This document shows, piece after piece, positions 51,741 to 55,382 of a stretch of 64,000 nt of DNA; the first letter of the stretch is position 1; each line of letters begins with the position of its first letter. The position numbers were made by a program, and so were the translations under genes. The notes beneath the pieces were generated by a model. The model made no database searches. It was not told the DNA's origin and was given only the letters and a program-made list of their open reading frames with translations. Source of the DNA: Methylocystis rosea SV97 (GTDB lineage Bacteria; Pseudomonadota; Alphaproteobacteria; Rhizobiales; Beijerinckiaceae); contig NZ_KB889963.1 of the NCBI RefSeq assembly GCF_000372845.1, forward strand, positions 2,179,923 to 2,243,922. The letters run 5' to 3'.

Positions 51741-54700
51741 ATGCAGCCTTCGGCCGAAGGAAAGGAATTTTGGGCGATCGGAGCCGATGCGGCGCTTGAG
51801 CGCCTGGGCGTGACGCGTTCGGGCTTGAGCAAGGCTGAGGCAGAACGGCGGCTCGCCGTCCATGGCCCCAATCGCCTCCCGGCCGGCAGACGGCGCAGCG
51901 CGCTCCTGCGCTTCGCGCTGCAGTTCCATAATGTGCTCATCTATGTGCTGCTCGCGGCCGCCTTCGTCACGGCGCTCATGCAGCACTGGATCGACACCGC
52001 CGTCATCGTCGCGGTCGTCGTCATCAACGCCATCATCGGATTCATTCAGGAGGGCAAGGCCGAAGAGGCCATGGAGGCCGTCCGCAACATGCTGTCGCTG
52101 CATGCGACGGTCATTCGAGACGGGCAGCGCGTCGTCATCGACGCGACCGACGTAGCGCCTGGCGACATCGTCTATGTCCAATCGGGCGACAAGATTCCGG
52201 CGGACATCCGTCTCATCCGGGTCAAATCTCTGAAAGTGCAGGAGTCGGCGCTCACCGGCGAGTCGCTGCCGGTCGACAAGGACCCGGCGCCGGTCATGGT
52301 GGATGTGCCGCTCGGAGATCGGGCGCCGATGGCCTATTCGGGGACCGTCGTGACCTACGGTCAGGGAACGGGCGTCGTTGTCGCCACGGGCGCCGCGACC
52401 GAGATCGGGCGCATCAACGCCATGCTGTCCGAGGTGGAGACGCTTACCACTCCCTTGTTGCAGCGCATGGATGAATTCGCACGCTGGCTCACGGTCGTCA
52501 TTCTGGTCGTTTCCGCCGCCGTTTTCGCTTTTGGCGCGCTGGTCTGGAATTTTGACGCCGGCGAGATGTTCATGGCGGCGGTGGGGCTCGCTGTTTCCGC
52601 GATCCCGGAAGGATTGCCGGCGATCATCACCATTACGCTGGCGATCGGCGTCGAGCGCATGGCGCGGCGCAAGGCGATCATCCGCCAACTGCCGGCGGTC
52701 GAGACGCTCGGCGCGGTGACGACAATCTGTTCGGACAAGACCGGCACGCTGACGCTCAATGAATTGATCGTGCGCTCGATCGTCATCTCCGGCGGGACCT
52801 ACGACACGACCGGATCGGGATATGATCCGCATGGCGGCTTCTTGCGCAATGGCAAGGATGTCGTGGTGCGCGAGGACGTTCACCTGACCGCGGCCTTGCG
52901 CCCTCTTGCGCTCTGCAACGACGCCGTGCTGCGCGAAACTGACGGCGCCTGGAGCGTCGAGGGCGATCCGACTGAAGGCGCCTTGCTCGCCGCCGCCGTC
53001 AAAGGCGGCGTCAATCTGGAAAAGCTGGCGCTGGAGCTGCCGCGCACGGACGAGATCCCCTTCGAGTCGCAGCACCGCTTCATGGCGACGCTGCATCACG
53101 ACCATGACGGCGCTGGCTACATTTTCGTCAAGGGCGCGCCCGAGCGGCTGCTCGAAATGTGCTTCTGGGAGCAGGACGTGCGCGGAGAGCAACGTCCTCT
53201 CGAATACGCCTGCTGGCTCGACCGCATCATTGAGATGGCCTCGCGCGGTCAGCGGGTTTTGGCGGTCGCCTCCAAGAAAGCCGAAGAGGGTCAGCAGCAA
53301 CTCGCATTCGGCGACGTTGAAAGCGGGCTCGTCTTTGTCGGTCTCATCGGCCTGATTGATCCGCCGCGCCCCGAGGCCGTCGAGGCGATCCGCGCATGCG
53401 CGACCGCCGGCATGTCCGTCAAAATGATCACCGGCGACCACGCCGCGACGGCGATGGCCATCGCCCGCGAACTCGGCCTGGAGCGGTGCGATTCAGTGCT
53501 CACCGGCCGCGACCTCGACGCCTTAGGCGACGAGGCGCTCGGCGAGGCGGCAAGCGTCACGACTGTGTTCGCGCGCACCAGTCCCGAACATAAGCTGCGA
53601 CTCGTTCAGGCGTTGCAGAAGCGCGGCGAAGTCGTTGCGATGACCGGCGACGGCGTTAACGACGCGCCTGCCTTAAAGCGCGCCGACATCGGCATCGCCA
53701 TGGGCGTCAAAGGCACCGAGGCGGCGAAAGAGGCCGCGGAAATGGTGCTTGCCGACGACAATTTCGCGTCGATCGTGCATGCGGTGTATGAGGGCCGCGT
53801 CGTCTACGAAAATTTGAAAAAGACCATCCTCTATATCTTGCCGACCAACGGCGGCGAGGGCCTCACGGTGATCGCGGCAATCGCAATGGGCGAGACCCTG
53901 CCGGTGACGCCCGTACAGATCCTGTGGATCAATCTGATCACCGCGGTCACGCTCGGCCTTGCGCTCGCGTTCGAGCCGCCGTCGAAGGGAGTCATGCTGC
54001 GCCCGCCGCGCCCGTCGGGCGAACCGATCCTCTCCCGCTACTTCATCTGGCGCATCGTCTTCGTCTCTTTCCTGATGCTGCTCGCGACCTTCGGCCTCTA
54101 TGAATTGGAGAAGGCGCGCGGCATGGGGCTCGACAGCGCGCGAACGGTCGCGGTCAACACGCTCGTCGCCTGCGAAGTCGCTTATCTCTTCAACGCTCGT
54201 TTCCTTTCCGAGTCGTCACTCTCAATGAAGGGCCTGTTCGGCAGCCGCGCGGTGCTGATTTCCGTCGCCATCGTCGTGGTGCTGCAGGCGCTGTTCACCT
54301 ACGCGCCCTTTATGCAGGCGCTATTCAACACCACGCCGCTCGACCCGGAGATCTGGTGGCATATCGCCGGAGCGAGCGTCGTGCTGTTCTTGCTCGTCGA
54401 GGTGGAGAAGGCCATTTTCCGTTCTCCTGCCAGGGCTCCAGCGCCTCGCGTGTCTGCGGCGACGGCGACCGGCGCGGCCGCTGTCGTGGCGCCCGGCGAG
54501 TGGGTCCGACCTGTCGTCGCCGGTTTATTGGGGCTCCTCATCATTGTCGTAAGCGGCGCGTTCTATCTTCACACGCGCGTCAGTCTCACGCGCGAAGAAG
54601 CGTCAGCTGGTCGAACGGTCGTCGTCAGCGGCGTGATCGCCCCGGTCGCGCAGACGCCGATCAATGCGCCTGCGGCAGGCGCCGTCGCGACGCTCTCTTG

Positions 54701-55382
54701 CGATGTCGGCGCGCAAGTGGAGAAGGGCGAGACATGCGCGACGTTCGCGCCGTCTTCCGGCGATGATGCGTTCGCGCGCGCGAAAAGCGCTTTGGCGGCC
54801 GCTGAGCGGCAACTGGCGCAGCGCCAGAGCGCGCAGGCGAGGGCGCAGGCGAACCTCCAAAGACTGGACTCGCGTTCGGCAAGTCGCGCCGCGAGCCGCA
54901 AGGCGCTTGCCGCGGCCCGAGGCGCCCTGGCGCGCGCGCAGGCGCAAGTAGAGCGCGCCGAAGCGGAAGTCGCTCTGCGCCGCAAGGCGGTGACGAAGGC
55001 GGAAGCGGGTCGAGCCGGCGCTGCGATTGTCGCGCCTATCGCAGGTTTCGTCTTGGAGCGAAGGGCAGCTGTCGGCGCGCGCGTCGAAGCCGGCGCGCCG
55101 CTGTTCATGATCGGCGACGCCAAGACCGTTCGGCTTCGAGTGAAAGCGGAGGGGGAGGGCGCTTTGACGATCGCGCCGGGCGCAGAGGCGGTCGTGACAA
55201 GCGAATCGGTCCCTGGCCGGACGTTTTCGGGAAAAGTGACCGAGGCGCGCCAAACGGAGTCGGACGCGTCCGTCGACGTCGTCGTCGAGGTCGATAATCG
55301 AGAGCTGGCGCTTCAACCGGGGATGGAGGTTTCGGCGCGCATCGGAATTGTGGAGAGCGAAGCCTCATCGATCGGCCTGTGA
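51741..55382 (+). CDS. P-type cation ATPase fused to a HlyD-type periplasmic adaptor
   Basis: 1213 residues; ATG 51741 follows GGAGGAG. Residues 1-910 are a complete P2-type ATPase: TM4 motif IPEGLPA at 288-294, phosphorylation site D332 in [15 protein letters not shown] (nucleotide domain), [26 protein letters not shown] and TM6 [20 protein letters not shown]. After TM10 ([20 protein letters not shown]) a short Pro/Ala linker leads to an extra helix (about 922-942), then a membrane-fusion-protein domain: lipoyl half 950-1000, an Ala/Arg coiled coil 1006-1090, second lipoyl half ([20 protein letters not shown]) and a beta-barrel to 1205. With ten helices the ATPase C-terminus is cytoplasmic, and helix 11 places the adaptor in the periplasm. 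Transported ion unknown; Ca or Na/K-type is likeliest from TM4 and TM6. Confidence 0.9.

Follow-up and report, generated by a model that had tools for sequence, protein, structure and literature searches.

A CX11C adaptor domain at the C-terminus of a P-type ATPase of Methylocystis rosea and of unrelated proteins in related genera

We analysed a stretch of 64,000 nucleotides from Methylocystis rosea SV97 (contig NZ_KB889963.1, positions 2,179,923 to 2,243,922; termed the window below), in which one gene encodes a P-type cation ATPase and a MacA-like periplasmic adaptor domain in a single polypeptide. This fusion is one member of a family: an adaptor domain with a CX11C cysteine pair, consisting of a barrel-sandwich, a hairpin and usually a beta-barrel, is located at the C-termini of unrelated, mostly inner-membrane energy proteins. 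The finding is larger than the single fused gene seen in the initial annotation, which was made from the sequence of the window. Literature searches on such fusions, and on Methylocystis membranes and P-type ATPases, yielded no description of one among the papers listed, as the initial annotation had anticipated, and neither "HlyD" nor "P-type" occurs in the main text of a proteome paper on Methylocystis SC2 (PMC9600857). It seems that one export-adaptor fold has come to serve as a general tail of unrelated, mostly energy-transducing proteins in a group of methane oxidisers.

The ATPase-adaptor fusion of the window

That pump and adaptor belong to one polypeptide was borne out by a reading frame of 1213 amino acids without internal stop (Table 1), by Pfam matches, structure models and orthologs. 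The Pfam domains of the ATPase part are Cation_ATPase_N (residues 11-76), E1-E2_ATPase (117-310), Cation_ATPase (390-474), Hydrolase (514-649) and Cation_ATPase_C (720-892). The tail matches HlyD_D23 (972-1195; 58.4 bits, cut-off 30) and HlyD_3 (1096-1194; 40.9 bits, cut-off 22.2), and the NCBIfam family RND_mfp scores 98.2 bits with the C-terminal part alone and 94.0 bits with the whole protein (cut-off 94.9).

The P2-class motifs DKTGT, TGE(S/A), GDGxND and PEGLP all are present in the pump, which agrees with the intact P2 ATPase described initially, and the catalytic motifs are intact in 28 of 28 P2 fusions checked. Judged by these motifs, the ATPase is predicted to be a catalytically complete P2 cation pump. 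Its nearest relatives among PDB sequences are human SPCA1 (515 bits) and LMCA1 from Listeria (504 bits); the NCBIfam scores for the PMR1 type (TIGR01522, 647.5 bits) and the SERCA type (622.1 bits) are below the respective cut-offs of 798.3 and 703.4. The aspartate found in transmembrane helix 6 (M6) of SPCA1 and LMCA1 is an alanine in the window pump (NLITAV); certain other P2 fusions do have it (L117, L118, L125, L134; here and below, handles with G stand for genomes and those with L for fetched loci). Since this residue of the solved calcium pumps is replaced, the identity of the ion is uncertain. At least five M6 ion-site motifs occur among the P2 hosts (NLITAV, NLVDGV, NMVTSV, NLITDG, NLVTNG), and this variety combined with intact catalytic motifs suggests that the tail does not depend on a particular ion.

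According to the initial annotation, ten membrane helices leave the end of the ATPase in the cytosol and an eleventh takes the adaptor to the periplasm. This topology is supported by two AlphaFold2 models, both of single chains, by the hydropathy profile and by the distribution of the extra helix across hosts described below. In the model of residues 14-1213 (mean predicted local distance difference test value, pLDDT, 76.8) the ten membrane helices of the ATPase are followed by a disordered linker, the extra helix (about residues 922-954) and the adaptor; linker and extra helix have pLDDT values below 50. In the model of residues 889-1213 (mean pLDDT 87) block means of the extra helix are 58-86 and most of the adaptor is above 90. 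A hydropathy peak of 2.52 at residues 925-943 argues for helix 11.

The best matches of the adaptor model in a Foldseek search of the PDB are MacA structures, and the nearest PDB sequence likewise is MacA (4dk0, E 1.5e-13). The tail thus combines the HlyD/MacA-type fold of barrel-sandwich, hairpin and beta-barrel with scores above the family cut-offs. It had been called complete; these three parts are indeed there, while the membrane-proximal domain is absent and the tip of the hairpin is degenerate. In the model of residues 889-1213 the adaptor ends about 11 residues past the beta-barrel, which would leave no room for the membrane-proximal domain of MacA. The profile matches of two fusions with other hosts (L126 and L147), by contrast, extend almost to the end of the MacA model.

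A frameshift or assembly join was looked for near positions 54440-54600 and none was found. Among the matches listed from 39 genomes of the genus, at least 15 are full-length without stop (that of the window itself plus 14 more, 82-100% identity); in the 14 other genomes, which answer the initial call for the fusion in close relatives, the frame is open at 82-95% identity. Carriers of the ortholog include Methylocystis sp. L43, M. suflitae NLS-7, M. silviterrae FS and Methylocystis sp. H62. The same listing contains paralogous fusions at approximately 58-74% identity and more distant ones at 36-48%. One paralog, on the Methylocystis rosea plasmid record NZ_CP034087.1, is publicly labelled as a plain "HAD-IC family P-type ATPase", which is a warning for annotation.

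Ratios of nonsynonymous to synonymous substitution rates (dN/dS) were calculated against 16 relatives. The ATPase has values of 0.08-0.15, helix 11 of 0-0.32 and the entire adaptor of 0.25-0.46; linker and helix 11 both stay below 0.6. The adaptor-wide values suggest that the tail is under selection, although less strictly than the pump. A frameshift or assembly join as the origin of the fusion was rejected because the frame is open in independent genomes and because of the dN/dS values of linker, helix 11 and adaptor. In two cases separate frames encode the ATPase and the adaptor of the ortholog (G020:C15:23142-26736 in G020, and L044:5322-8919); these could be sequencing errors or true splits.

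The CX11C tail, its hosts and their distribution

For the comparison of adaptor domains, 148 domains were deduplicated to 110, with matches shorter than 150 residues dropped, and the hosts of the 60 fused rows were labelled by BLAST to the window ATPase (P2) or by Pfam. The fused rows include two pieces for which no single frame with the host was read: the split ortholog L044 and L117:3-974, which is cut by the end of the fetched stretch and was called heavy-metal type from the neighbouring stretch. The CX11C pair (C987 and C999 in the window protein) is present in 60/60 fused rows and in 7/50 standalone adaptors, and a single Cys was never found in the 110 rows. All 13 further fusions have the pair as well. 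In standalone adaptors the commonest residue pair at the two sites is Val/Leu (21/50), which suggests that the two sites touch and that the cysteines are bonded to each other; that no row has a single Cys also looks like a disulfide. The pair probably is a disulfide that stiffens the tail.

The hairpin tip differs between the two groups as well. The TolC-contact motif of the tip, which we take to be R, L at +4 and S at +11, reads R1041, R1045 and S1052 in the window protein, so that the Leu is replaced by Arg1045. This Leu is present in 43/50 standalone adaptors versus 9/60 fused ones, 15 of the 60 being gapped there (8/58 once the two pieces named above are excluded). After thinning to 60% identity the counts are 22/27 versus 7/31 (p 1.5e-5). 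All seven standalone adaptors with CX11C retain the Leu, and the three for which the locus was read (L111 in the source genome, L141 and L209) adjoin macB genes of 704-707 amino acids. The macB of L111 has MacB_PCD, ABC and FtsX domains (Pfam); those of L141 and L209 were assigned by similarity to it.

In a tree of 63 of the 110 domains, L117:3-974 included, a branch with support 99/98 separates all 16 standalone from all 47 fused domains. The host label changes on the tree five times for P2, three times for P1B and twice for COX4. The tree fits a single origin of the fused module with later transfers between hosts. The window protein carries the Cys pair, has the adaptor at the C-terminus of its host and falls on the fused side.

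Like adaptors were found at the C-terminus of unrelated hosts in this genus and in two related genera. Besides P2 ATPases, P3A H+-ATPases are fused in L126 and L147 (TIGR01647, 1068 and 964 bits, cut-off 615.5); L278 scores 567.5 bits, below the cut-off. A heavy-metal ATPase, a hemerythrin domain and the adaptor form one chain in L128 (TIGR01525, 505 bits, cut-off 346), and further heavy-metal ATPase/hemerythrin fusions were assigned by Pfam (L127, L148, L149, L205, L212, L277, L279, L280, L281); the open frame of L276 holds only the later part of a heavy-metal ATPase. The alpha subunit of an alternate F1F0 ATPase is followed by a helix and a CX11C adaptor in three genomes (G004, G014, G016; Table 1), and one would expect each F1 to carry up to three tails. 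Subunit IV of quinol oxidase (CyoD/COX4_pro) is a host in L142 and L143, which exceed the CyoD cut-off, and in L203, L207, L210 and L282-L285 according to Pfam. A cytosolic AHSA1/SRPBCC domain precedes a membrane helix and the adaptor in L204:9094-10560 and L208:8347-9846, and a protein with four transmembrane helices, counted by eye, carries the adaptor in L130. An AI-2E permease, a P2 ATPase and the adaptor make up a chain of approximately 1600 amino acids in L117:6172-10971 (Pfam); L288:6784-11583 was assigned to the same type from a profile match and its length alone.

Among the hosts read by eye, those with a cytosolic C-terminus (P-type ATPases, F1 alpha, SRPBCC and the protein with four transmembrane helices) all have an extra helix ahead of the adaptor. 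No extra helix precedes the adaptor in the CyoD fusions read, and we take the C-terminus of CyoD to be periplasmic. Since the extra helix tracks the cytosolic C-terminus, the adaptor would be on the periplasmic side in every host kind read.

A different C-terminal domain was observed on other P2 ATPases, namely an OmpA domain (Pfam) in L112:9671-13096 (G000:C1:3455670-3459095) and L113:14679-17984, both in the source genome, and in L119:8186-11461 (G005). The OmpA family domain binds peptidoglycan; these proteins are perhaps ion pumps tethered to it.

Among 199 sampled genomes of the family, 20 from three genera have pmoA/amoA (PF02461) and are termed positive for particulate methane monooxygenase (pMMO) here. 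At least one fusion was read from the sequence in 17 of these 20, with none seen in G140, G160 and G203. No fusion was seen in the 179 pMMO-negative genomes among the matches listed (down to E ~2.5e-11). The link between pMMO and fusion is weaker inside the genus than across the family: of 39 genomes, 27 have both, 4 pMMO only (G008, G022, G034, G035), 4 the fusion only (G015, G020, G023, G027) and 4 neither (Fisher p 0.04 with relatedness ignored). The four genomes with the fusion only are draft assemblies in 60-210 contigs, and completeness is 99% for two of the four. In G008 and G035 the locus read (L037, L038) encodes a P2 pump that ends directly after the ATPase.

Beyond the family, a class-wide profile search of 385 genomes gave no protein spanning both parts other than that of the window among the matches listed. 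From a phylum sample of 398 genomes searched at E<=1e-60, six long or strong candidates were fetched (L299 among them), and all are standalone adaptors. A set of 20 stretches with long frames, including a stub of 100 bases (L224), was read in addition. The 12 candidates from pMMO-negative genomes of the family and the six from other families of the order all were rejected as standalone adaptors, as was L223 from the pMMO-positive genome G160; no host domain was seen by eye in the upstream part of the frame in these 18 stretches (L216, L219, L221 and L222 among them) or in L223.

The genes just upstream of the fusion are conserved in place at 12 orthologous loci, as far as each fetched locus goes. 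For the small gene directly ahead of it (Table 1) there is no sign of a part in the function of the fusion. A promoter and terminator scan gave no signal above chance, and a tRNA search of positions 51000-57000 found none. Downstream, an open reading frame of 972 amino acids (56554-59472, + strand) codes for an M14 zinc carboxypeptidase domain and, C-terminal to it, a von Willebrand factor A domain (Pfam).

Table 1. Features of the fusion gene and its surroundings (positions in the window) and locations of the F1F0 alpha subunit fusions (positions in the fetched loci).
Feature	Position	Strand	Evidence
Fusion gene, 1213 aa	51741..55382	+	one open frame; orthologs of like architecture
P2-type (SPCA/PMR1/LMCA1-like) cation ATPase, residues 1-893, phosphorylation site D332	51741..54419	+	Pfam; PDB matches; catalytic motifs
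Loose cytosolic linker, residues 894-921	54420..54503	+	low pLDDT; fast change among orthologs
Eleventh transmembrane helix, hydrophobic core residues 925-947	54513..54581	+	hydropathy; both models; dN/dS 0-0.32
MacA-like periplasmic adaptor domain, residues 959-1205	54615..55355	+	Pfam, NCBIfam, AlphaFold2, PDB sequences, Foldseek
Cys987, first Cys of the CX11C pair	54699..54701	+	in 60/60 fused adaptor rows, always with its partner
Cys999, second Cys of the CX11C pair	54735..54737	+	0/110 rows with only one of the pair
Alpha-helical hairpin, residues 1007-1046 and 1053-1092; tip R1041, R1045, S1052	54759..55016	+	secondary structure of the model; tip counts
Beta-barrel, residues 1129-1202; protein ends soon after	55125..55346	+	AlphaFold2 model
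Small upstream gene, "ArsC-like" (label by eye), member of the syntenic block	51174..51584	+	upstream of the ortholog in 12/12 loci compared
F1F0 alpha subunit fusions	L129:3826-11642, L274:5291-7864, L275:3245-5830		L129 and L274 above TIGR03324 cut-off; L275 by Pfam

Possible roles of the tail

We give an even chance to the reading in which a promiscuous periplasmic tail serves to oligomerise or tether its host and the pump functions without help from it. Cation transport across the inner membrane would need the pump only, and the tail would not dock to TolC. Self-oligomerising or tethering, the tail would be a structural handle by which the host is clustered or held in position, either in the periplasm or in the lumen of internal membranes. 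In favour of this are the many kinds of host that share the module, the tree that sets fused apart from standalone adaptors, the Cys pair, the frequent loss of the tip Leu, the variety of M6 motifs and the dN/dS of the adaptor; PacL scaffolds and the OmpA-tailed P2 ATPases of the source genome, compared below, are precedents for the idea. In G012, a single-contig genome, the fusion is the sole adaptor of this profile at E<=1e-30, so that a partner in the form of a CX11C MacA or of another tailed protein seems dispensable there. This genome makes it more likely that the tail acts homotypically or has an unrelated partner. If the tail clusters or places its hosts, it would give access to the organisation of internal membranes in methanotrophs, and the sorting of ion pumps, ATP synthases and oxidases by bacteria could be addressed genetically.

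Several observations weigh against this reading. Constraint is approximately three to four times weaker on the adaptor than on the pump; over the first 50 adaptor residues the dN/dS values are 0.29-0.87 (0.87 in L144) with an outlier of 4.1 (L131, which has few silent changes). The beta-barrel is missing in L116, L137, L198 and L199, and the hairpin tip in L139 and L150, so that the strictly common fold comprises only helix, barrel-sandwich and hairpin. The tip Leu is still found in nine of the fused rows, with another 15 gapped at this site, and a TolC-like gene is present in the fetched DNA of 9/56 fusion loci (search with six OEP proteins or pieces of the source genome as queries, E<=1e-6). 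The fused rows are not mutually independent, and the SRPBCC hosts are not energy proteins.

The TolC-like genes at these nine loci would fit the role proposed in the initial annotation, in which cation pumping is linked to export through the outer membrane. As a one-protein exporter, the fusion would hexamerise through its tail and recruit TolC, so that periplasmic cations leave through the outer membrane. The tail does have the MacA fold with its hairpin, heavy-metal ATPase fusions would make sense in such a role, and the source genome contains 25 domain matches to the outer-membrane factor (OEP) as well as TolC-type, EmrA-like and H+-ATPase genes side by side elsewhere. However, none of the OEP matches is in the window, where the initial annotation had suggested looking for a linked outer-membrane factor, and MacB matched at 0/56 fusion loci. 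The tip Leu is lost in the window protein and in 51 of 60 fused rows, the window protein has no membrane-proximal domain, and hosts of the module include F1 alpha, CyoD and SRPBCC proteins, none of them known as an exporter. Export via TolC is weakened by tip loss, gene context and host range, and we regard it as quite unlikely. A separate observation concerns L194:7346-12911 (G000:C1:437345-442910), where genes for a TolC-type protein, an EmrA-like adaptor and a P3A H+-ATPase are adjacent on one strand, followed by a gene resembling the major facilitator superfamily (MFS; by eye). This cluster is possibly an unfused three-gene unit with a P-type ATPase.

The tail might also be without function. 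In that case a recombination-prone adaptor fragment would have been added at many 3′ ends in this lineage and tolerated, which would agree with the weaker constraint, lowest in the first 50 residues, with the absence of barrel, tip or membrane-proximal parts from one copy or another and with the split ortholog in G020 and L044. Such drift is doubtful, since the adaptor-wide dN/dS is 0.25-0.46 in 16 comparisons, helix 11 is conserved, the Cys pair is present in all fused rows, the frame is kept down to 82% identity in 14 other genomes among the matches listed, and the periplasmic side is retained on every host kind read.

A regulator or ion buffer, also named initially, would sense or bind the pumped cation, or the redox state through the Cys pair, and tune the pump. 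The pair is invariant in a compartment taken as oxidising, which speaks for this reading. Against it, the pair occupies Val/Leu sites of standalone adaptors (21/50) and never occurs as a single Cys, which is disulfide-like; in addition, the ion-site motifs differ among P2 hosts and some hosts pump nothing. We consider regulation improbable.

The oligomerising or tethering tail can be placed in a wider setting. The intracytoplasmic membranes of Methylocystis run parallel to the cytoplasmic membrane, according to a published account (PMC12566213), which makes a role in these membranes attractive. In some genomes with pMMO no fusion was seen, which speaks against a requirement of the module for intracytoplasmic membranes; a role of the tail in them is possible, unproven. 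Extended further, a MacA-derived tail on ion pumps, an alternate ATP synthase and a quinol oxidase might self-assemble in the lumen of the intracytoplasmic membranes of alphaproteobacterial methanotrophs and space, cluster or sort the energy machinery, as a periplasmic "organiser". This is speculative, and we hold it to be rather unlikely in this full form; if true, bacteria would have in it a counterpart to domains that shape membranes or form supercomplexes.

Comparison with known systems

The pump resembles the P2A Ca2+ ATPases SPCA1/PMR1 and LMCA1 over residues 16-895, with the catalytic motifs intact. It differs from them in the extra helix and tail, in the exchange of the M6 Asp for Ala and in a PMR1 score under the cut-off. 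The P2 ATPases with an OmpA domain (L112, L113) are built alike, as a P2 pump with a C-terminal domain of periplasmic kind; that domain is of the OmpA family and its fold is unrelated to the adaptor tail.

MacA, the adaptor of MacAB-TolC, is the nearest solved sequence and fold to the tail, and the CX11C standalone adaptors whose loci were read adjoin macB. Here the tail is joined to a pump rather than expressed beside MacB, the tip Leu is lost, the window tail has no membrane-proximal domain, and CX11C stands where standalone adaptors commonly have Val/Leu. With the tripartite pumps MacAB-TolC and EmrAB-TolC the tail shares the adaptor fold; unlike them it has no linked channel in the window and a degenerate tip, and some of its hosts are not known exporters.

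A precedent for the clustering of a P-type ATPase by an accessory membrane-anchored protein is PacL1-CtpC of mycobacteria, in which PacL scaffolds cluster the ATPase in platforms (PMC9374683). PacL1 differs in being a separate protein with a cytoplasmic region and without an adaptor fold.

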